Source of the DNA: an uncultured Rhodospirillales bacterium
GTDB lineage: Bacteria; Pseudomonadota; Alphaproteobacteria; Ferrovibrionales; Ferrovibrionaceae
Assembly: GCA_937905845.1 (NCBI GenBank)
Contig: CALCYJ010000147.1
Location: 1-38,985, forward strand
DNA length: 38,985 nt
Reading direction: 5' to 3'
The position numbers and the translations under genes were made by a program. The notes below the pieces were generated by a model, which was not told the origin of the DNA, made no database searches, and worked only from the letters and a program-made list of their open reading frames with translations. Positions within the stretch are counted from its first letter, which is position 1; the number at the start of each line of letters is the position of its first letter. Of the stretch, positions 1 through 11,528 are shown in pieces.

Positions 1-657
1 GCCATAGGTATCGACGGAACCATCGGCGTTGGTGCGGCTCACCGCCGCGCTCAGGCCGGAGGCGAGCGTCGAATTCAGATAGCCGTCAAGCGTCTGCGCG
101 GCGCAGATGACGCTGTACTGGGTATTGGGCGAGAGCGCGCCGCCGGTCGGCACGTCGCTCACCGGGCTCGGCGTCGGCGTCTGGCCCAGGGCGAGCGAGC
201 TGTTGCCGCCAAGCAGCACCCGCTCCTCGCCGATCATCAGCGCCCTCAGCAGGCCTTCGACCGCCAGGTTGCGCACGTCGTCGAACCCGGTCGCAGCATA
301 ATCCGCCTCGAAGGTCACGTAATCTTCGAGGCCGAGGCCCTTGTAGGCGGCGGTATAGGATTGCGTCGCCGTGGTCACGACGCCGGCGCGATTGCCTTCC
401 GAAAGGCCGATGGCGAGTGCCGCCGTATTGATGCCGGTAATGGCTTTCCAGTTGGTCGCCGTACCGCCGTTGCCGGCGACGCGGGGAATCGCGTTGCGCA
501 GCGGCGTCAGCACCGGATAGAGCTTGAGCGCGCCGGGCTGCAGATCATAGGCGACAAGGCCGGTGGCCTGGGTAATCGCCTTGGCGAGCGAGGCGCTCGA
601 TGCTCTCAGATTCTGCTCGACCGATACGAGCGTCTCGTTGACGGAACTGCTGTTCAT
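1..657 (-). CDS. Phage major capsid protein, partial (C-terminus off the left edge)
   Basis: An open frame of 219 codons runs from ATG at 657 to the window edge without a stop. The product starts MNSSSVNETLVSVEQNL and continues with a region rich in Ala, Gly and Thr (for example LGLEDYVTFEADYAATGFDD, LLRALMIGEERVLLGGNSS) that reads like an HK97-fold major head protein. It directly follows portal and prohead protease genes, the usual place for the capsid gene, and that context is the main support. A GGAG ribosome site sits 7 bases before the ATG. A hairpin with a run of six Ts lies between the protease gene and this one, so capsid expression may be set separately. Capsid identity is inferred from position and composition, not from a signature motif. 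Confidence 0.75.
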   Translation of the reverse strand, partial: MNSSSVNETLVSVEQNLRASSASLAKAITQATGLVAYDLQPGALKLYPVLTPLRNAIPRVAGNGGTATNWKAITGINTAALAIGLSEGNRAGVVTTATQSYTAAYKGLGLEDYVTFEADYAATGFDDVRNLAVEGLLRALMIGEERVLLGGNSSLALGQTPTPSPVSDVPTGGALSPNTQYSVICAAQTLDGYLNSTLASGLSAAVSRTNADGSVDTYG

Positions 658-682: not shown

Positions 683-707
683 AAAAAACCCCGGCGGTGC
701 CGGGGGG
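683..707 (-). terminator. Intrinsic-terminator-like hairpin between protease and capsid genes
   Basis: On the minus strand CCCCGGC-ACC-GCCGGGG forms a perfect 7-bp GC stem with a 3-base loop, followed at once by TTTTTT (683-688). It lies between the protease stop (749) and the capsid ATG (657), inside what should be one late operon. It could be a partial terminator needing antitermination, or an RNA-processing or stability hairpin protecting the capsid message. Confidence 0.7.
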
Positions 708-748: not shown

Positions 749-1477
749 TCAGCGCCCCATCAAGAAGAGATGCGCCTGCATGGGGCGGCGCTGCGCCAAG
801 CGGATGGCGGCCAGGGCATCCTTCGGCTCTTCGTCGGGCGCGGGATCGCCGAGGTCTTCACCCTTGGCGACGGCTTTGAGGATTCCGCGCGCCTTGACCG
901 GCTGGCCGGCGATGAGCGCGACCTGGCGCCGCAAGGCCTCCAGCTCGCCCGCAAGGTCTTCAAGCTTGGCGAGCAGGCTGTTCTGGCTCTTCGCCAATAT
1001 CGCGAGATCGGCCGCATCCGACGCGGCGCCCGCCCCGTCCGCGATGAACGCGGTCTGCGCCTTGTAGACGTCGAAGATGCATTCGGCGTTGGCCGGGCGA
1101 TCGACCAGGCTGATTTCGCTGATCTCGCAGCCGGTGACGATATGGCGGTCGAGCTGATCCCGCCTGGTGACGCGGCCGCCGATCGAGAAGCCCTTGTAGA
1201 CGCCCTCCTTGATCTTGCGCCAGGCGTCGTCATCAACGATCTTGGCCTTGAGATGGAGGCCGCGATCGTCCATTCCGGCGTCCTTTGCAACCCCCACGGC
1301 GGAGGCCCGGTGCATCTCGCGAATATTGCCAAAGCGCATGTAGTCCGGGAGGGCTGCTTCCACCGCCTCGCGCTTGATGACCTCCCCTTGCGAATCGAGC
1401 GCCTCGGTCGAGGCATAGCCCAGGACGATCCGGTCCTCCTCGTCGATTTTGCGGATTTCGGCGTAGATCTTCATCAT
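749..1477 (-). CDS. Phage prohead protease (XkdF-like / S78 type)
   Basis: This 242-residue protein should be the capsid maturation protease that cleaves the scaffold or capsid delta domain inside the prohead. The N-terminal part has the typical layout of the family: VLGYASTEALDSQGEVI (residues 18-34), a His in REMHRAS (His56), YKGFSIGG with Ser98, and EISLVDRPAN (121-130). His56 and Ser98 are the likely catalytic pair. The C-terminal third is Ala/Leu-rich and helical, as expected for a fused scaffold-like region. The ATG at 1477 overlaps the portal stop (ATGA) and is preceded by AAGGAG five bases upstream; a second ATG follows immediately. It lies between portal and capsid genes. Confidence 0.85.
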   Translation of the reverse strand: MMKIYAEIRKIDEEDRIVLGYASTEALDSQGEVIKREAVEAALPDYMRFGNIREMHRASAVGVAKDAGMDDRGLHLKAKIVDDDAWRKIKEGVYKGFSIGGRVTRRDQLDRHIVTGCEISEISLVDRPANAECIFDVYKAQTAFIADGAGAASDAADLAILAKSQNSLLAKLEDLAGELEALRRQVALIAGQPVKARGILKAVAKGEDLGDPAPDEEPKDALAAIRLAQRRPMQAHLFLMGR

Positions 1478-2832
1478 GGCATCTCCTTGGCTGCGGCGCC
1501 GGGTGAGTGGCCCGTGGCCGGGCCGGACGGCTGGATCGGAGGGGACGGGCTCTGATCGGGCGCGAGCGGATCGAGACCGAGTTCAGCGCGCACCTCGTCG
1601 ATCGATTTGATGCCGGTCGTGACATAGATCTGAGCGATCGTGGCGGCGGCGGAAGGATCGGCGGTATCCTCCTCCACGTGCCAGGTAAATTCGAGATCGG
1701 GAGCCTTGAACTCGCGCGCGATCAGGCCGTCGATGAACTGCTTCAGCCATTTCTGTAGCGGCGCCAGCCCTTCTTCCTCGGCGACCTCCTGCACGCTGGA
1801 GGCGGTGGCGCGGTTCATCAGGCGGACGAGCGGCGCCGGCGATACCGAGAAGGCGTAGCAGATGATGCGGGCCAGCCACTCGTCGTAATCGTCCTTGAGC
1901 GGATCGCTCTTGGTCGGATGATAGGCGAAGGCACCGGGGACGAAGCGGGCATGGCGCCGCGTGCCGCTGTTGCCCGAGAGCAAGGCGTCCCAATAATCCT
2001 GGAACTGGCGGATCTGTTCGGGCGACCAGGTGTCGGGAACGCCGATCAGCGCTTCCGGCACATTGCCTTCGGTATAATACTGGAGCTGGCTCAACTGCCG
2101 GCGCAGCGCGATATTGACGGTCATGACGATCTGCTCGACCGGCGAGAAGCCATAGACCTTGTGGCTGCGGGGGTTGCGCGGCAGATAGAGCAGCTCGTCG
2201 CGGGTATAATTCACCGCCGGCAACCCTTTCAGGATCTGCTGATAGGCCGGATCGGGCGGCAGGGGCGTGCGGCCGCTATCGTCGATGACCCGCTTGATGG
2301 TGGCACCGTCGACCGGCTCCAGGGCATAGAGGCTGCCGTCCCGGTTGCGGCGGAGATAGAGCGTCGGCGCGTCGATGACGAAGAGATCTTCGAGCAGGAT
2401 CCTGAGCCAGCTCGACCAGGCGTGCTCGTGGTCGGGGCATTCCAGAAAGCGGATGATGGGCGCGATCCGCGGGTCGCCCGCCGCCGCGTGCCGTGCGCCG
2501 CCCGGCATAAGGCGCGGCCGGATGGTCCAGGACAGCCGCTCGAACTGATCCTTGCGGCTTTCAATCACGAGGCGCAGAAGATCGTAGGAATCGGCAAGCC
2601 GGCGCAGCTCGTGGAAGGAAAGGCGCTCGCCGGCCCGCGGCGGCGTATCGAGATTGTAGCCGACGGGATAATCGAACTGGCGCCCCATGACCTCGGGCGG
2701 CGCCATCGGCGGCAGCGGCTGGTCGGGCCCGAACCAGTCCGCGGGCTCGCTTCCCGTGACGATATAGCGCAATCCCTGGGCGACGCGGGTGATCAGGCTC
2801 GCATCCAGAAGTTTGCCTTCGGCTCGTGCCAT
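1474..2832 (-). CDS. Phage portal protein
   Basis: The 452-residue product starts MARAEGKLLDASL. It would form the dodecameric ring at one head vertex through which DNA is pumped. Typical portal features are DLLRLVIESRKDQFERLSWTI near residue 85, the central segment ELLYLPRNPRSHKVYGFSPVEQI, and the helical stem region TVNIALRRQLSQLQYYTEGNVPEALI. The open frame extends further upstream, but ATG at 2832 is chosen because a GAGGA ribosome site lies 4-8 bases upstream and the longer form would overlap the preceding gene in another frame. Its stop overlaps the protease start (ATGA). The C-terminus (residues above about 400) is Pro/Ser-rich. Confidence 0.85.
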   Translation of the reverse strand: MARAEGKLLDASLITRVAQGLRYIVTGSEPADWFGPDQPLPPMAPPEVMGRQFDYPVGYNLDTPPRAGERLSFHELRRLADSYDLLRLVIESRKDQFERLSWTIRPRLMPGGARHAAAGDPRIAPIIRFLECPDHEHAWSSWLRILLEDLFVIDAPTLYLRRNRDGSLYALEPVDGATIKRVIDDSGRTPLPPDPAYQQILKGLPAVNYTRDELLYLPRNPRSHKVYGFSPVEQIVMTVNIALRRQLSQLQYYTEGNVPEALIGVPDTWSPEQIRQFQDYWDALLSGNSGTRRHARFVPGAFAYHPTKSDPLKDDYDEWLARIICYAFSVSPAPLVRLMNRATASSVQEVAEEEGLAPLQKWLKQFIDGLIAREFKAPDLEFTWHVEEDTADPSAAATIAQIYVTTGIKSIDEVRAELGLDPLAPDQSPSPPIQPSGPATGHSPGAAAKEMP

Positions 2833-4761: not shown

Positions 4762-5202
4762 CTAACTGTCGATCTGAATGCTGAGGGCGGCGGCGGCGAA
4801 GGCGGGCGCGGCGTCGCCATCATTCACGGTCTTGGCATTCGTCAGGATGCCATAGAAGAGCAGGTTGCCGCCGCTGGCCGCATCCAGGATGCCGAAAGCG
4901 GTGATCACCCCCCAATCGGCGGTCGGGGCGGGAAAGGTGATGGCACCGTTATTGGAGGTGGTGGCGCTGGTGCCGTTCGACGCAGCGGTCGTGCCGGCCC
5001 CTTGCGTTCCCGCCCATCCGGCAAGGCCCGACGTCGTGGCCGCGCGGGCATAGGAGCCGCCCGAAACCTCGGTGCCGCCGCCCGATGCGGCCGGCTCGGC
5101 GGTATAGAGCGCGACATAGAGGGTCGGCGGCGGCGTGTAAGCCTGGGCACGGAAGAGAAAATCGACGATGGTATTTTCGAGATAGGTACTCATGCCGCTC
5201 AT
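4762..5202 (-). CDS. Phage fibre-like structural protein (146 aa)
   Basis: The product MSGMSTYLENTIVDFLF followed by YTPPPTLYVALYTAEP, GGTEVSGGSYARAA, WGVITAFGILDAASGGNLLFYG and TNAKTVNDGD matches a recognisable family of about 130-150 residue virion proteins in tailed phages, often annotated as tail-fibre or hypothetical. It is beta-rich with no catalytic motif. The ATG at 5202 overlaps the large-terminase stop (ATGA). An alternative in-frame ATG lies at 5193. GGAGG lies about nine bases before the first ATG. Confidence 0.7.
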   Translation of the reverse strand: MSGMSTYLENTIVDFLFRAQAYTPPPTLYVALYTAEPAASGGGTEVSGGSYARAATTSGLAGWAGTQGAGTTAASNGTSATTSNNGAITFPAPTADWGVITAFGILDAASGGNLLFYGILTNAKTVNDGDAAPAFAAAALSIQIDS

Positions 5203-6566
5203 GGGTCCAGTCCTCCGGCGGATGCCGCCTGCTTGCGGTAGAATTCGATCAGTCCGGTGCGGTCGTTCTCGATCATCAGCTCGGTCAGCGCCCAGACCAG
5301 CGCATCGACCCGGTCGGGCGATGCATCGCTCACGCTCGGTACCCAGCTCGTCATCTGATCCTCGAGATCGGGCAGCGCCTGCAGGTGGTGAACCCGCCGC
5401 TGCTCGTAGAGGGCCGCGATCGGCTCGGCGCGGGCGCGCTTGCCGCGGCTGGCCCGGACCGACTTGTAGGCGACGCCGGGATCGACGGTGCGCAAGGTCA
5501 GCCCGATCAGATCGCCGCCCTGGTTGACCTCGCCGACGATCCGGTCGGCGCGATGGGCGTGATAGGCCTGTACGGCCTTGCTCGCCCAGGCGTCGGGCGA
5601 ATAGCGGCCCGAAAGATCGGCGATGACATAGCCCTGTCCGTCCTCGCCAAGCCCGGCCACGACGATGCCGGTCTCATCGGCGTTATCGCCGGCGGTGACG
5701 GCCGGATCGACGGCGACGACGACGCGGCGGAATGGCGGTGCGGCAGAAACCCGCAAGGCATCGAGCCCGGCGCGGCTCCACAGGGCGCCGTCGCTTTCCT
5801 CCAGCAGCTCGGCCTGGAGTTCCTGGCGCCCGAGCCGCGTTCCTTCATAGGTGCGCAGCAGCCGCTCCAGGAAACTTTGCGGCAGGTTGGACGCATTGGC
5901 ATAGGTGGCGCCGCGGGTGACCCGTGTGGTGGGATCGGCGGCCAGGACCCGTAGCAACTTGCGCGGCTTGGGCGTCGTCGTCACCACGCGGCGCGGATCG
6001 GAACCGGCGCGCAACGTCATCTCCAGATTGCTCCATGTCATGTCGAGATAGGTCCAGGCGGCGAGTTCGTCGGCCCAGACGCCATCGTGATTGGGGCCAC
6101 GCAGACGTTCCGGCTCCTCGGCCGAGTAGAGATCGGCGGTCGCCCCGTTGGGCCAGGTCAGGCGCAGCTTCGAGGGCTCGAACAGCGGCCGGAACCACGG
6201 CGGCGAGATGGCGAGAATGCCGCTCTCGCCCTCCACCATGATCTTGCGGGCATCGCGCAGGGTCGGCGCGAGCAGGGCGAGGCGCCCGCGCCGGCCGCTT
6301 TCGACCTCCGCCCGCACCCATTCCGCGCCGGTCCTGGTCTTGCCGAAGCCGCGCCCGGCCAGCAGCAGCCAGGTCTCCCACGCCCCCTCGGGGGGCAGTT
6401 GCTCGGCCCTGGCCCAGAATTCCCAGCAATAGAGGAGGATGGCCGCTTCCGGCTCAGTCAGGCTTACCAGGAAGCTTTGCCGCTCGGCTGCGGGCAGCGA
6501 GACGAGCCAGCTTGCGTTCCAGAGTCTTTCGGGCGGCACCGGCGGCAGGTTCGGCGGATCGAGCAT
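5199..6566 (-). CDS. terL: Phage terminase large subunit (packaging ATPase/nuclease)
   Basis: 455 residues from ATG at 6566. The ATPase half has Walker A GRGFGKT (71-77), Walker B VWADE (163-167) and the coupling motif VTTTPKP (194-200). The RNase H-like nuclease half has VVVAVDPAVTAG with Asp287 and SPDRVDALVWAL with Asp421. It is about the usual length of alphaproteobacterial packaging proteins and looks intact. The start is uncertain: the frame stays open upstream, ATG 6566 gives a 113-base overlap with the small-terminase-like gene, and the AAGGAG in front of it is 13 bases away. The protein pumps DNA into the prohead through the portal and cuts the concatemer. Confidence 0.93.
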   Translation of the reverse strand: MLDPPNLPPVPPERLWNASWLVSLPAAERQSFLVSLTEPEAAILLYCWEFWARAEQLPPEGAWETWLLLAGRGFGKTRTGAEWVRAEVESGRRGRLALLAPTLRDARKIMVEGESGILAISPPWFRPLFEPSKLRLTWPNGATADLYSAEEPERLRGPNHDGVWADELAAWTYLDMTWSNLEMTLRAGSDPRRVVTTTPKPRKLLRVLAADPTTRVTRGATYANASNLPQSFLERLLRTYEGTRLGRQELQAELLEESDGALWSRAGLDALRVSAAPPFRRVVVAVDPAVTAGDNADETGIVVAGLGEDGQGYVIADLSGRYSPDAWASKAVQAYHAHRADRIVGEVNQGGDLIGLTLRTVDPGVAYKSVRASRGKRARAEPIAALYEQRRVHHLQALPDLEDQMTSWVPSVSDASPDRVDALVWALTELMIENDRTGLIEFYRKQAASAGGLDP

Positions 6567-7260
6567 GCGGGTCCGATCGCTCCTTGGCGGCAGCTTTCCG
6601 GTGCAGATAGGGCGCGGCGGCTCTGGCCATCGAGGCCCGGCGATCCTCGGGCACATCCGGGTCGCGCATCACGGCCAGCATGTAATCGAGCGGCAAGGAC
6701 TGACCCGCCGCCCCGGCGCCTTCGCCACCCTCGCCGCCTTTCGGTGCCGCGACAGAAGGCACGGGCGCGGCCGCAGCGCCATCCGTCCTCCCGGCCACCG
6801 CCCGATCCGCCTTGGACGCCTTGGATGCCTTGGATGCCTTGGATGCCTTGGATGCCTTGGATGCCTTGGATGCCTTGCCCCGCTTCACCGTCGCTTTGGC
6901 GGCCGACGCGGTGCCGGCGGAATCTTTGCCGGCGGAAGCCGGCGCCGGCGCCTTGCCGAGGCGCCGCATCCTGGTCCCCTGCCCGCCCGGCTTCGCCGGA
7001 TCTCGCGCACCCGAAATGTCCGAAATGTCCGAAGCGTCCGAAGCGCTGTCGGTCGCCGCAGCAGCCGCAGCGGCCACGCCGATATCACCAGCGCCGGTCG
7101 GCGCGCCTGGCGTCGGGTCTCGCCCAGCATCGTGCCGGGCATCGCGCGTCGAAGCCTTCGTCCGCCGCGGCCCCGCTTTCCTGGTCACCGCCGCCCGCCT
7201 TCCGGCTGCCGCGACCTCCTGTCCGGAAACGGGATGAAACCGCAGCAGCCCGCGACGCAC
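6454..7260 (-). CDS. Terminase small subunit-like protein with low-complexity KAS repeat tract
   Basis: 268 residues from GTG at 7260. The recognisable part is near residues 185-220, LPLDYMLAVMRDPDVPEDRR...MARAAAPYLH, a segment I associate with small-terminase-like DNA-recognition proteins next to terL in alphaproteobacterial phages. The first 180 residues are low complexity: Arg/Ala-rich, then SDASDISDIS, then seven KAS units, giving a very basic, histone-H1-like tail. No convincing ribosome site precedes GTG 7260, and an ATG at 7277 is in another frame, so the true start could be internal and the low-complexity region partly untranslated. It overlaps terL by 113 bases. Confidence 0.6.
   Translation of the reverse strand: MRRGLLRFHPVSGQEVAAAGRRAAVTRKAGPRRTKASTRDARHDAGRDPTPGAPTGAGDIGVAAAAAAATDSASDASDISDISGARDPAKPGGQGTRMRRLGKAPAPASAGKDSAGTASAAKATVKRGKASKASKASKASKASKASKASKADRAVAGRTDGAAAAPVPSVAAPKGGEGGEGAGAAGQSLPLDYMLAVMRDPDVPEDRRASMARAAAPYLHRKAAAKERSDPHARSAEPAAGAARKTLERKLARLAARSRAAKLPGKPD
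6812..6874 (-). repeat. 9-bp tandem repeat, 7 copies, encoding Lys-Ala-Ser
   Basis: Plus-strand unit TTGGATGCC is repeated six times without change (6821-6874), preceded by one variant TTGGACGCC (6812-6820). Read on the minus strand it encodes (KAS)n in the small-terminase-like protein. The unit is a multiple of three, so copy-number change would lengthen or shorten a basic linker without a frameshift. A second, degenerate 9-bp tract (GAAATGTCC twice, GAAGCGTCC, GAAGCGCTG) lies at 7013-7048 in the same gene. Confidence 0.95.
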
Positions 7261-7285
7261 TCACAATTTTCGATCATGGTGAAAG

Positions 7286-7332
7286 TATATACAGGAACCG
7301 TCCGGTAGTGTCAAGTATAAAATACGTACACT
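7286..7332 (-). promoter_or_regulatory. Consensus leftward promoter of the packaging/structural operon with overlapping palindrome
   Basis: Minus-strand -35 TTGACA (7309-7314), 17-base spacer and -10 TATATA (7286-7291) form a near-perfect sigma-70 promoter firing leftwards into the terminase genes; transcription should start near 7279. An imperfect inverted repeat AGTGT...ACACT (7307-7332) overlaps the -35 and is a candidate operator. The region 7300-7410 is strikingly AT-rich compared with its surroundings. The nonamer TACTTGACA is shared with the Cro-side promoter near 9270. Confidence 0.75.
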
Positions 7333-7551
7333 TCTATCTAATCTTTAAGATTTATAATAATACTGCCTTCTTATCAAAAATAATATGTCAATTAAGCCCC
7401 AATTTTACTTATGGTCGACACCGCCGCTCCGGCCGCCGCCGCTTGCGGCCGCATTCGCCGCCGATGACGAAGAGATTGATCCGGCGCCCCATTCGACCGC
7501 ACAATCCAACCCGCGGCATTCGAACGGCGATGCCTCCGGGCGCCGCAGATT

Positions 7552-7839
7552 TTGCGTAGATTTTTTAATCGGGACCCTCGACCCATGCCCCAAGGTTTCG
7601 GCGCGACGATCGTGAAGCTCGCCCTGCTCTCGCTGGCGGTCGGGCTGGTCCTAACCTTCTTCGACATCACGCCGGAACATCTGCTGCTGCATTTCGGCGC
7701 CACCGTCCGCAGCGTCTTTCACCTGGTGTCCGATGCGGTGCGCTGGGCCGTTCCCTATGTTCTTCTTGGCGCGACCGTGGTGGTGCCGATCTGGCTGATC
7801 GCGCATCTGTGGCATTCGCCCCGCAATCCCTTCCGCTGA
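7552..7839 (+). CDS. DUF6460-like small membrane protein
   Basis: 95 residues from TTG at 7552, or 84 from ATG at 7585. Two hydrophobic segments are visible: VKLALLSLAVGLVLTFF and WAVPYVLLGATVVVPIWLIAHL. The C-terminal signature (WAVPYVLLGA-VVVPIWL) and N-terminal RRFF match my memory of the alphaproteobacterial DUF6460 family, whose function is unknown; the RRFF start favours the TTG codon. It lies on the strand opposite to the surrounding phage genes, convergent with the DUF6456 gene and divergent from the late operon. It could be a moron or a host gene retained in the element. A 6-bp-stem hairpin (7856-7876) follows it. Confidence 0.7.
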   Translation: MRRFFNRDPRPMPQGFGATIVKLALLSLAVGLVLTFFDITPEHLLLHFGATVRSVFHLVSDAVRWAVPYVLLGATVVVPIWLIAHLWHSPRNPFR

Positions 7840-7900
7840 CCTGAGGGCGCCGCATGGCCGCGGCAAGCCTGCGGCCGGGTGCTGGCGAGCGCCATCCGCG

Positions 7901-8503
7901 TCAATCCCGGCGGCGGTTCCGGCCGGCGCGGTAATAGAGCAGCAGAGCATCGAGACCGAGCTGCAATGCAATCATGCCGGCGATTTCGGCGCGGCGTCCG
8001 CGATGATTGCGGCTTGCCGCCCAATCGCTGGCGCGGCCGTCGAGGCAGGCGACATGCATCAGCACGGGGCTTAAGACGGTGCCGACGGCGCGCAGGGCAG
8101 CATCGAAACGCTCGCGCGCCGCCAGCCGCTGCTCCGACCAGTCATCGCAGCCGCCCGAACGCCGCTCGGCATAGCGGGCGGTGATCCGCTGGCCAAGGGA
8201 AGCGAGCGTGAAATCGCGCCGCAGCCTTTCGCCGGCCCACCATTGCTCCTCGGAAATCTCGGCTCGCCGCCGGTAGCGGTCGAGCGGCGTCTGGCTGCTC
8301 ACCTTGACGACGCGGCGAAGCTCGCCCTCGGCCAGCACGTCGATGCGGTCGAATTCATCGTGCTGCCAGCGTTCGGCTGGTCCCCGATCATCACCGCCCA
8401 GCGCGACCTCGACGCCGCTCGCCGGATCGCGCCCGAGCCCAAGCCGCGGCTGATCGCCCGGCCGTGTGCCGGCAGGCCGGCGGGGCCTCGCGCTACTCGT
8501 CAT
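7901..8503 (-). CDS. DUF6456-family protein, candidate GafZ/Q-like late regulator
   Basis: 200 residues. The conserved C-terminal domain runs from about residue 70: SSQTPLDRY, EEQWWAGERLRRDFTLASLGQRITARY (86-112), then RFDAALRAVG, and finally ALQLGLDALLLYY. This follows the DUF6456 pattern (QF-AGERLR-DF...LQLGLD-LA-HY). DUF6456 is, as I recall, the domain of GafZ and the C-terminal part of GafA, which activate GTA clusters and act at RNA polymerase. The first 65 residues are poorly ordered. Its ATG overlaps the stop of the 137-residue gene (ATGA). Its place just before the late promoter is where lambdoid phages keep Q. Antitermination activity is inferred. Confidence 0.65.
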   Translation of the reverse strand: MTSSARPRRPAGTRPGDQPRLGLGRDPASGVEVALGGDDRGPAERWQHDEFDRIDVLAEGELRRVVKVSSQTPLDRYRRRAEISEEQWWAGERLRRDFTLASLGQRITARYAERRSGGCDDWSEQRLAARERFDAALRAVGTVLSPVLMHVACLDGRASDWAASRNHRGRRAEIAGMIALQLGLDALLLYYRAGRNRRRD

Positions 8504-8913
8504 GACGGATTTCCCGGCGCCGGGCAGATTGCTTCCCCGCCTTGCAGCGCCCGGGCCGGCGGCGGCCTGTCCACCCCCCCCGCCGGTTCGCGAATATCAT
8601 GGGTCCAGCACAGCCGCCAATGATCGACACAGGCCGCCGGCACTTCGACGTCGGGCGCCACGGCGCCGGCGCAAAGCTGCCGCCAGGCCGAAATCTGCAC
8701 GTAGGAGCGCAGCCGCCGGCTCCAGCCTTCCGCCGCCGCCTGGCGACCGAGTGGCCCGGCGAGGAAATGCTCGGCATAATCCCCCGCGATCCGATAGGCG
8801 CGCTGCCAGGGATATTCCGGAACCGGGTCCAACCGCCCGCCGCAGGGACCGGCCGGGATTACGGCAGACGGGGCCGTCACCGGCCCGGTGAGGTCGCAGC
8901 AATCCCGGCTCAC
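8500..8913 (-). CDS. Uncharacterised early-region protein (137 aa)
   Basis: No family recognised. GTG at 8913 overlaps the stop of the Cro-like gene (GTGA), and its own stop overlaps the DUF6456 gene (ATGA), so the three are almost certainly one translationally coupled operon. The middle, PEYPWQRAYRIAGDYAEHFL through EGWSRRLRSYVQISAWRQL, is predicted helical and basic and could bind DNA or protein; there are several Cys residues (CCDL, QLCAG, ACVDHW, CWTHD, AICP) but no clear zinc motif. A longer frame extends upstream to 9204 but is out of frame with and overlaps the Cro-like gene, so it was not used. Confidence 0.55.
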   Translation of the reverse strand: MSRDCCDLTGPVTAPSAVIPAGPCGGRLDPVPEYPWQRAYRIAGDYAEHFLAGPLGRQAAAEGWSRRLRSYVQISAWRQLCAGAVAPDVEVPAACVDHWRLCWTHDIREPAGGVDRPPPARALQGGEAICPAPGNPS

Positions 8914-9236
8914 GGCGTCTTCCCGCTCGATTCGGACGGTTCGGCTGGTTCGGCCGCCCCCTCGACGGCCCCGGCGGCATCCGGTGCAGCGTCCGAGGCC
9001 GCTGCGGCGGCATCGGCTTGATCGATGAAGAAATCGGCGGCGGTCAGCGTGATGCCGCGTGCCCGCGCCGCCCGAACCAGGGGCTGCTGGCGCTGCGTCG
9101 GCACCAGCCCACCGGAGCCGCGCCGGGCATGCGAATAGGTCCAGCGATAGACGGCGCTGACATTGAGCCCGAGCATCTCGGCCACCTTGCGCGCGCCGCC
9201 GCATTTACGAATGATATGAAGGGCTGCGTTTTCCAT
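8910..9236 (-). CDS. Cro-like helix-turn-helix regulator
   Basis: 108 residues from ATG at 9236. An HTH lies at about residues 12-32 (GGARKVAEMLGLNVSAVYRW), followed by VPTQRQQPLVRAARARGITLTAADFF, the arrangement of YdaS/Cro-like regulators encoded opposite phage repressors. The C-terminus from about residue 73 is an Ala/Glu-rich tail. It is the first gene leftwards from the divergent control region and probably opposes the CI-like repressor in the lysis/lysogeny decision. No ribosome site of normal strength is seen upstream. Confidence 0.75.
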   Translation of the reverse strand: MENAALHIIRKCGGARKVAEMLGLNVSAVYRWTYSHARRGSGGLVPTQRQQPLVRAARARGITLTAADFFIDQADAAAAASDAAPDAAGAVEGAAEPAEPSESSGKTP

Positions 9237-9243
9237 GCCGGGA

Positions 9244-9272
9244 ATATTGCCACATAAACAATTAATTGTCAA
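9244..9272 (-). promoter_or_regulatory. Leftward early promoter with 12-bp palindromic operator
   Basis: Minus-strand -35 TTGACA (9267-9272), 17-base spacer, -10 CAATAT (9244-9249). A perfect 12-bp palindrome ACAATTAATTGT (9258-9269) sits in the spacer and overlaps the -35, where a bound repressor would block RNA polymerase. It drives the Cro-like, 137-residue and DUF6456 genes. Confidence 0.7.
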
Positions 9273-9329: not shown

Positions 9330-10049
9330 ATGGATGGTCGTTGGTTTCAAGATCAGCTTCGGCGTTCCGGCCGCCCTCAGGCCGATCTCGCGCGTTATCT
9401 GCGGCTGAATGCCGCGGCGGTGAGCCGCATGTTCAAGGGCGAGCGGCAGATGAAGCTGCTGGAAGCGGCGCAGATCGCAGCCTTCCTCGGCGTGTCGCAT
9501 GAGGAAGTGATCCGCCGCGCCGGCCTCTATGATCAACGCGGGGAATTCCTGGGCCTGGCGCACGAACAGGCCTCGCGCACCGCCGGCCTGCACGAAGGGC
9601 CGAATACGGGCGGACTTCTGGCGCCGCCCGAGGCGATGCCGGCCGCAGCCCGCATGGCGCCGTTCGGTCAGCGCGACCTGCCGGTGCGCGGCCGGGCGCA
9701 GGGCGGTCCCGACGGCGCGGTCATGCTGGACAACGAGCCCATCGACTGGACCTATCGCCCGCCCGAGCTTCTGGGCACGCGCGATGCCTTCGCCATGTTC
9801 GTCACCGGCGGCAGCATGGGCGACGTGCTGCCGGAAGGGGCCACGGTCTTCATCCACCCCAATCTTCCGCCTCGCCCCAACGATCTGGTTGTGGTGGAGA
9901 AGCGCAATCACGAGGCTCTGATCAAGCGCCTGGTGCGGCGCACGATCGAGCACGTCACCTTGCGCCAATATGACCCGGCGCAGGATTTCGAGCTGCCGCG
10001 TGAGGATATCCGCTCGCTCTATCGGGTGATCGGCGCGCTTTTCCCTTGA
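9330..10049 (+). CDS. CI-like prophage repressor (HTH plus S24 peptidase)
   Basis: 239 residues. The N-terminal HTH is at about residues 16-38 (RPQADLARYLRLNAAAVSRMF). The C-terminal LexA/S24 domain begins near residue 118, with the cleavage region VRGRAQGGPDG, catalytic Ser162 in VTGGSMGDVLPEG and catalytic Lys199 in ALIKRLVRR, ending YRVIGALFP as in alphaproteobacterial phage repressors. The cleavage region has Ala-Gln where the classic cleaved bond is Ala-Gly. The protein should hold the prophage silent and be lost after RecA-stimulated self-cleavage. It diverges from the Cro-like gene and is predicted to be translated from a leaderless message. Confidence 0.9.
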   Translation: MDGRWFQDQLRRSGRPQADLARYLRLNAAAVSRMFKGERQMKLLEAAQIAAFLGVSHEEVIRRAGLYDQRGEFLGLAHEQASRTAGLHEGPNTGGLLAPPEAMPAAARMAPFGQRDLPVRGRAQGGPDGAVMLDNEPIDWTYRPPELLGTRDAFAMFVTGGSMGDVLPEGATVFIHPNLPPRPNDLVVVEKRNHEALIKRLVRRTIEHVTLRQYDPAQDFELPREDIRSLYRVIGALFP

Positions 10050-10385
10050 GATTTCCGCCCGGGCATTTGACGATCCGCCTTCGTCGCCAAACATGCCAAG
10101 CTTACTGTTGCAACGCCTGTTCCTATCGAAAAAGCGAATCCACTTTCTCGCAACAGGCTCCGGGGACCCCGGCCCCGGTGGGGTCCTGGCCCCGGTGAGG
10201 TCGGGGCCTGGACCTTGCCGATCCGAGCCGGAGATGGAGGCGGAAGATGCGGAGATCTTTTCCGCTTCAGCAACAAATTCACCGCCTTCGACCGCAATTC
10301 GTCGCGCGCCGTGGCGATGAGAATGTTGTGTTTATAACAATGTCCAGGACCGTTCAGGCCCGGCGTTGGAAGGAGCCTGCCGCCG
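10050..10385. other. 336-bp gap at the right boundary of the phage-related genes
   Basis: No gene seen. It contains a REP-like palindrome (10115-10158), a direct repeat of about 14 bp built on GGCCCCGGTG (around 10178-10207) and an AT-rich stretch (10324-10342) just before the aminomutase gene. If the element is an integrated prophage, its right attachment site should lie here or nearby, but no tRNA or obvious core repeat can be identified from this window alone. Confidence 0.5.
10115..10158. repeat. REP-like palindromic repeat, copy A
   Basis: GCCTGTT ... AACAGGC forms the outer stem; the inner part CGAAAAAGCGAA / TCCACTTTCTCG is an imperfect stem. It has the same layout as copies B and C: outer stem, a few unpaired bases on the left arm only, and an inner stem ending in the TCCACTTT core. 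This is the most degenerate copy. Confidence 0.65.
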
Positions 10386-11528
10386 ATGCCCCTCTCTCCT
10401 GAAGCCGACCGCCGCAGCCTCGATGACCTGGTCTCGGGCGGCCTCCTCGATGCGCAAGCAGCGGCGGATCTCGGCCCGGTGGCGGCAGCCTATCCGGTAA
10501 CACTCACCGCTACGCTTGCCGCCGCGATCGACCCGATGGACCCGGGCGACCCGATCGCCCGTCAGTTCGTGCCGAGCCTGGCCGAGCTTCTGGCCGCACC
10601 CGAGGAGCTTGCCGACCCGATCGCCGACGATGCCTTTTCGCCGCTCAAGGGCATCGTGCATCGCCATGCCGACCGGCTGCTGCTGAAACCGGTTCATGTC
10701 TGCCCGGTCTATTGCCGCTTCTGCTTCCGCCGCGAAATGGTGGGTCCGGGCGCCAAGGCCCTGACGGCCGCCGAGCTTGCGGCGGCGCTCGACTATATCC
10801 GCCGCCACGAGGAGGTCTGGGAGGTCATCCTAACGGGCGGCGATCCGCTGATGTTGTCGCCGCGGCGCCTGGCGGGGCTGATCGCGGCGCTGGACGCCAT
10901 CCCGCATGTCGCGGTGATCCGCCTGCACACGCGGGTGCCGGTCGCAGCCCCTGAGCGCGTGAGTGCCGCCCTCATCGCGGCACTCGCCACCGCCGACGCT
11001 GCGCTTTATATCGCCGTTCACTGCAACCATGCGCGCGAGCTTGGCGATGCGGCGCGCGCGGCCTGCGCCCGCCTGTCGGGCGCCGGCATTCCGCTGCTCG
11101 GCCAAAGCGTGCTGCTGCGGGGGGTGAACGACGACGAGGCCAGCCTGACCGCGCTGATGCGGGCCCTGGTCAAGGCGCGCATCAAGCCTTATTACCTGCA
11201 TCAGGGCGATCTCGCCCCCGGCACGGCGCATTTCCGCACCACCATCACCGAAGGCCAGGCGCTGATGCGCCATCTGCGGGCCAATGCATCGGGCCTGTGC
11301 CAGCCGCATTATGTCCTCGATATCCCAGGTGGCCACGGCAAGGTCCCGATCGGTCCGGCCTATCTGGCGCCCGGGCCCGAGGGCGGTTACGAGGTGACGG
11401 ATCTCGCCGGAAACCGGCACGCCTATCCGCCGGCGCCGGCTGACGCCGCCACGTCTGGCGCCCCGGCGGTGCTCGATGACGACGGCAGGGTGCTGCGCTC
11501 GTCGCCCGAGGGCAGCGGCGTCCGCTGA
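10386..11528 (+). CDS. Lysine-2,3-aminomutase-like radical SAM protein (KamA/EpmB family)
   Basis: 380 residues. The radical SAM cluster motif is CPVYCRFC (Cys106, Cys110, Cys113), SAM-binding GGDPL follows at 151-155, and the PLP lysine is Lys319 in LDIPGGHGKVPIGP. It moves an amino group from C2 to C3 of lysine, either free or, for EpmB-type enzymes, the lysine that will modify elongation factor P. No epmA or efp is in view, so the exact substrate is open. The last 40 residues are a low-complexity tail, and the gene overlaps the convergent hydrolase gene by 106 bases. A GGAAGGAG site lies about ten bases before the ATG. Confidence 0.85.
   Translation: MPLSPEADRRSLDDLVSGGLLDAQAAADLGPVAAAYPVTLTATLAAAIDPMDPGDPIARQFVPSLAELLAAPEELADPIADDAFSPLKGIVHRHADRLLLKPVHVCPVYCRFCFRREMVGPGAKALTAAELAAALDYIRRHEEVWEVILTGGDPLMLSPRRLAGLIAALDAIPHVAVIRLHTRVPVAAPERVSAALIAALATADAALYIAVHCNHARELGDAARAACARLSGAGIPLLGQSVLLRGVNDDEASLTALMRALVKARIKPYYLHQGDLAPGTAHFRTTITEGQALMRHLRANASGLCQPHYVLDIPGGHGKVPIGPAYLAPGPEGGYEVTDLAGNRHAYPPAPADAATSGAPAVLDDDGRVLRSSPEGSGVR

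Follow-up and report, generated by a model that had tools for sequence, protein, structure and literature searches.

The window, that is, the whole stretch of DNA analyzed here (a contig of 38,985 bp), holds the right-hand portion of a prophage, which extends to approximately position 10,050 and gives way to chromosomal DNA; a lysine aminomutase-like gene lies at 10,386. The prophage is truncated, its left half being absent: the contig stops inside the capsid gene, and the assembly does not contain the remaining half of that gene. Read from right to left, the element presents an S24 repressor gene, a divergent Cro-like gene, a small ORF, a DUF6456 gene, a late promoter and the genes for TerS-like and TerL proteins, followed by a Gp80-like gene, two unknown genes and the portal, protease and capsid genes. 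Between the repressor gene and the neighboring host gene, no integrase or replication gene was seen. The features are listed below; gene starts, called with a simple ORF/composition script, are approximate.

9330-10049 (+): S24/HTH repressor (CI-like), divergent from the early operon; Peptidase_S24 E 2.4e-10, HTH_3 E 1e-5, phrog_4 E 4e-22
9243-9272 (-): early promoter, TTGACA-18-AATATT
8910-9236 (-): Cro-like HTH protein, first early gene; P22_Cro E 3e-4 and YdaS E 6e-4, both under cut-off
8500-8913 (-): small early ORF, GTG start assumed; no Pfam or PHROG match
7901-8503 (-): DUF6456 (GafZ-like) gene, 200 aa, PF20057 match; final gene of the early operon
7585-7839 (+): DUF6460 small membrane protein; PF20061 E 1e-11
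7284-7314 (-): late promoter, TTGACA-17-TATATA (or -19-TATACT), with TTGACA at 7309-7314
7297-7306 (-): palindrome ACCGGACGGT (core CCGNNCGG) in the promoter spacer, candidate element for the DUF6456 protein; core common to the L023, L024, L026 and L044 late promoters
6454-7260 (-): small-terminase-like ORF; phrog_15261 E 3e-6, residues 144-240
5199-6656 (-): large terminase TerL; Terminase_6N E 8e-25, Terminase_6C E 4e-16
4762-5202 (-): Gp80-like fiber/head protein; PF23140 E 1.6e-43
1474-2817 (-): portal protein, start approximate; PF04860 E 7e-23
749-1477 (-): prohead protease S78; PF04586 E 2e-8
689-705 (-): intrinsic terminator within the late operon, in the protease/capsid gap; 7 G-C pairs, loop of 3, six T
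1-657 (-): major capsid protein, cut at the contig end; phrog_13692 E 1e-56

The DUF6456 gene is the last early gene preceding the late promoter and the packaging genes, namely, the slot held by Q in lambda, as the original prediction had proposed, and this order recurs in other phages across unrelated packaging modules. The prediction had also placed the gene at 7279-8503, right before the late promoter. Although the gene is found there and the order is correct, it stops at 7901, with the promoter lying 586 bp beyond, across a gap that holds the DUF6460 ORF. The latter, an insertion on the opposite strand, resembles a moron gene. The start of the TerS-like ORF is uncertain; an ATG at 6969 is plausible and would give a leader of about 300 nt. 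The same ORF contains a nine-base tandem repeat, GGCATCCAA (- strand), with about seven copies at 6807-6885, corresponding to a KAS repeat in the protein.

The DUF6456 protein

GafZ contains the domain DUF6456, as does GafA at its C-terminus. The presence of this domain in the 200-aa protein, predicted from the DNA letters, was confirmed by a Pfam profile search, in which PF20057 matched residues 70-192 (E 3.1e-15; 56.9 bits versus a curated cut-off of 26.3), a score that both assigns the protein to the family of the GafZ-GafA C-terminal domain and rules out a chance match. No other Pfam family matched at E<=1, antiterminator families included. The gene is the sole DUF6456 copy in the source genome (G000, 88% complete).

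In the AlphaFold model, residues 66-200 are helical throughout and confidently predicted, while residues 1-65 are disordered. No near relative was found among solved structures. When predicted viral structures were searched with Foldseek, the named best matches were DUF6456 proteins, including gp38 of RDJL Phi 1; beyond the family, weak matches to sigma-70 region 4 proteins were obtained. Lambda Q, phage 21 Q and AlpA gave no Pfam match and were not among the 50 best PDB Foldseek matches. Membership of the DUF6456 protein in the lambda Q family was accordingly ruled out, given neither sequence nor fold similarity.

The late promoter and downstream hairpins

The consensus late promoter that had been predicted proved to be present, with TTGACA followed by TATATA 17 nt on or TATACT 19 nt on. 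The composite TTGAC-CCGNNCGG-TANNNT is unique in the source genome to this promoter; the pattern is not enriched genome-wide over a reversed control, and its weight comes from location only. The broad alignment of relatives (A1) was too diverse for pattern scans. Spacer palindromes were read in the best promoter of the DUF6456-TerL interval, ACCGGACGGT of the window being joined by CCGTACGG in L024, GCCGTACGGC in L026, CCCGCGCGGG in L023 and CCGCGCCGCGCGG in L044. Across 107 loci (1.73 Mb), TTGACA-N1-5-CCGNNCGG occurred seven times, with five of these occurrences, including that of the window, lying in a DUF6456-TerL interval (binomial ~1e-8, an optimistic figure because the core was taken from the very sites counted). 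A spacer palindrome was seen in 6 of 20 late promoters, as compared to a mean of 1.8 (largest, 4) in random regions of the same loci (150 draws), and was not seen at L088 or in the marine group of DUF6456 phages. The marine phages instead share a conserved promoter just before TerS, TTGACT-AAAAG(G/T)CCGCA, with the -10 lying 17 nt past the -35 (six distinct sequences). The exact pattern TTGACT-AAAAGKCCGCA also appears in five contigs lacking DUF6456, these being chance matches.

GafZ of Caulobacter crescentus is a GTA (gene transfer agent) antiterminator, in line with the original prediction, and its published site, the inverted repeat GCGCCCG-CTGGCGC, lies between -35 and -10 (PMC11150451). 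The window palindrome is equally placed in the promoter spacer, but differs in its letters. The sequence at 7297-7306 is a putative recruitment site of the DUF6456 protein.

The terminator that had been predicted at 683-707 is real, reading CCCCGGC-ACC-GCCGGGG-TTTTTT at 689-705 (-); when the region was dinucleotide-shuffled 100 times, 14 of the shuffles yielded one as strong. Immediately downstream of the late promoter, the window offers a weak hairpin (-5.9 kcal/mol) at +45. By contrast, a terminator-like structure soon after the late promoter is clear in several relatives, with L023, L024, L026, L088 and L103 presenting a strong hairpin 39-56 nt past the -10. In the marine phages, a hairpin and T-tract begin about a dozen nt beyond the -10, a promoter-then-terminator layout like that of lambda pR'-tR'. 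In total, 8 of 20 late promoters were followed by a terminator-like hairpin, versus a mean of 0.7 (largest, 3) in random regions of the same loci (150 draws), although these control regions were mostly coding and the excess may partly reflect intergenic DNA. The observed palindrome and hairpin counts were reached in none of the 150 draws. No hairpin was seen at the late promoters of L044, L108 or L112. In the marine terminator alignment, 97% of cells were paired, versus 27-64% when the alignment was slid; covariation was not above that of shuffles, with a single pair showing changes on both sides.

Relatives in phages and in gene transfer agents

An initial scan of genome contigs with the window protein as query yielded no relative, and tblastn against INPHARED returned a single match, MW462191.1. 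This entry, labeled 'Bacteriophage sp.', contains at 64223-88534 (L021) a mucR / GafY / GafZ / sufE locus of chromosomal type, together with beta-lactamase and Tet(X4)-labelled genes, and looks like a bacterial chromosome mislabelled as phage. DUF6456 relatives were detected in 64 of 385 genomes of the class; in a sample of the phylum, matches above the cut-off were confined to the same class. Scores in that sample were bimodal, with most falling at 110-218 bits and a second set, including the window, at 33-58 bits.

Sixty surrounding regions were retrieved and classified. The survey proposed earlier, for DUF6456 adjoining terL in prophages, uncovered the gene ahead of terminase in about 20 additional loci from phages or prophages, involving three kinds of terminase, with Terminase_6, GpA and TerL_ATPase each confirmed by Pfam; in L044, L086, L101 and L134, TerL was recognized by iterative similarity only. 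TerL follows DUF6456 on the same strand in prophages (L023, L024, L026, L088, L103 and L112), in marine viral contigs (L004, L007, L033-L038, L041 and L047) and in L040, a temperate phage with an integrase. Some of these loci correspond to temperate, lambda-like phages that carry integrase as well as replication genes. L024, designated a virus by IMG/VR, is complete and lambda-ordered, with integrase, repressor, DnaB, a DUF1376-like gene, DUF6456, TerL, portal and tape measure.

Other surroundings were also encountered. Eight further weak-scoring loci (L194-L201), an out-of-sample set in which no terminase was found in the stretch read, are short prophage remnants from two genera, with a repressor and GcrA-like or DUF1376-like genes, and DUF6456 as the last early gene in all eight. 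L022 (G002:C11) and L025 (G052:C47) each hold a lone divergent S24 repressor-DUF6456 pair amid host genes (pgi, queC), in a neighborhood free of phage genes. L112 and L176 (G397:C9:60,300-79,600) form a cluster of about 19 kb that opens with an S24 repressor and DUF6456 and encodes TerL, portal, protease, capsid and tail proteins. Neither integrase nor replication genes were seen in this candidate GTA-like element, and GTA_TIM is absent.

In an unrooted tree (75 rows, 131 columns), all GTA-type proteins and the gafZ genes of family f126, 36 rows in all, are split off together by a 98/99 branch. Rows of the phage type are about twice as divergent and fall outside this clade (mean path 1.9 within the GTA clade vs 3.6 among the remaining rows), as does the midpoint root, and no phage- or prophage-type protein is nested within it. 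The window protein likewise lies outside. Moreover, no match to the DnaA-like partner GafY was found in the window and none to GTA_TIM, taken as the sign of an RcGTA-type cluster, in the source genome at 88% completeness; on these three counts, the window protein was rejected as a GTA-type GafZ orthologue.

Many GTA-type loci present the published gafY, gafZ, sufE layout, often with a divergent S24 repressor gene. GTA activators are otherwise described as being located elsewhere in the genome. In family f126 (L098 and L108), however, gafZ heads the GTA cluster, immediately before TerS and TerL; in G142, GTA_TIM lies on that contig as well, 14 kb downstream. A gafZ-type gene atop an RcGTA-type cluster (TerS, TerL, portal), beside mucR or an S24 repressor, was noted in L098 (G142:C12), L108 (G328:C11) and L102 (G245:C98). 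The f126 layout is consistent with GTA activators having descended from phage regulators while retaining the position in places; a secondary joining of gafZ and the GTA cluster is possible. The earlier suggestion that GTA activators descend from prophage antiterminators thus gains from the tight GTA clade and the roughly twofold greater divergence of phage proteins, but is held back by the tree being unrooted. Most likely, the GafZ/GafA activators derive from one branch of the DUF6456 phage family. Because the phage relatives share the slot and, in part, the control site, the switch appears to have originated long ago in phages and to have been adopted by bacteria afterward.

Proposed mode of action and known counterparts

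The Q-like reading given to the DUF6456 gene at the outset is supported by the sequence comparisons: the late-promoter element is conserved, and relatives carry a terminator-like hairpin immediately downstream, both of which a Q-type antiterminator requires. The DUF6456 protein is probably a GafZ-type regulator of the late genes of this temperate prophage that works like lambda Q, while being unrelated to Q in sequence or fold. Upon loss of the S24 repressor, the short early operon (Cro-like gene, small ORF and DUF6456) would be expressed. By analogy with RogA, an S24-type repressor controlling gafYZ (PMC9632790), the S24 gene of the window would control the DUF6456 gene. The protein would next be recruited at the spacer palindrome of the late promoter and then travel with RNA polymerase, allowing terminators of the late operon to be passed (689-705 in the window, the hairpin at about +40 in relatives), such that the packaging and capsid proteins would be made. 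In the window, the likely points of action are the internal terminator and, should TerS begin at 6969, the long leader. Weighing against this reading are the weakness of the +45 hairpin, the missing GafY match, given that Caulobacter GafZ works with GafY, and the DUF6456 phages in which either the palindrome or the hairpin was not seen. A broader proposal is put forward tentatively, with somewhat less than an even chance of holding: DUF6456 proteins would be alphaproteobacteria-wide phage late antiterminators with their own spacer operators, analogous yet unrelated to Q, from which GafZ/GafA arose once, along with the S24-repressor/regulator/terminase layout, with L098 and L108 keeping an intermediate state.

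Were the DUF6456 protein instead a plain activator, it would recruit RNA polymerase to the late promoter without antitermination. R. capsulatus GafA indeed recruits RNA polymerase through omega (PMC9638019), the window is devoid of a strong immediate terminator, and the weak viral structural matches outside the family are sigma-70 region 4 proteins. Yet the -35 of the late promoters is near consensus, such that an activator seems less needed, in several clades terminator-like hairpins recur at a fixed distance past the promoter, and antitermination is the activity of the homologue GafZ, rendering plain activation unlikely.

In a reversed history, phages would have captured a host GTA regulator, their genes deriving from GTA activators. 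The unrooted tree leaves this direction possible, and GTA-type genes, which occur widely in Alphaproteobacteria, have co-evolved with the GTA cluster (PMC9765227). Still, the single GTA clade, with no phage-type protein nested in it, its shorter paths and the position of the midpoint root make such capture distinctly unlikely. More improbable again is the reading of the element in the window as a GTA-like particle cluster that has been domesticated, rather than a prophage, with DUF6456 as its activator. Such a reading could draw on the f126 arrangement and the lack of an integrase or replication gene between the repressor and host genes, but the element is without its left half, Gp80-like and other genes separate TerL from portal, and the absence of GTA_TIM from the source genome and the placement of the protein outside the GTA clade speak against it.

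As regards the Q-like late regulator, what is new is the Q position, together with the late-promoter element held in common and the pattern across phages, whereas a phage GafA homologue was already known. In those parts of the literature consulted, DUF6456 is rarely mentioned, and neither in titles or abstracts nor in a prophage context; a 2025 eLife title on Bartonella GTA antitermination is cited in PMC13236601. The regulatory half of GTA domestication would become traceable if the activator is a phage late antiterminator still in use. DUF6456 would, moreover, leave the list of domains of unknown function in the case of phages. The promoter-terminator modules of the marine phages and L024 are compact, offering a setting in which the GafZ mechanism is testable without GafY or IHF, and the proposed mechanism predicts a binding site.

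Caulobacter GafZ acts jointly with GafY. It resembles the window protein in its domain family, in the S24-type repressor, in the inverted repeat between -35 and -10 and in the terminators of the controlled operon. GafZ is, however, encoded away from the GTA cluster, paired with GafY and contained in the GTA clade, whereas the window gene adjoins terminase in a prophage, with GafY not detected, and falls outside that clade. Rhodobacter capsulatus GafA and gp38 of the roseophage RDJL Phi 1, the phage copy reported earlier (Fogg, 2019; PMC6363796), likewise carry DUF6456 at the C-terminus, but possess an additional N-terminal HTH part, and the gp38 gene lies among replication genes, with terminase not adjacent. 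With lambda Q, phage 21 Q and AlpA, the likeness is one of gene position, of a putative element in the promoter spacer and, in relatives of the window gene, of an early terminator-like hairpin.
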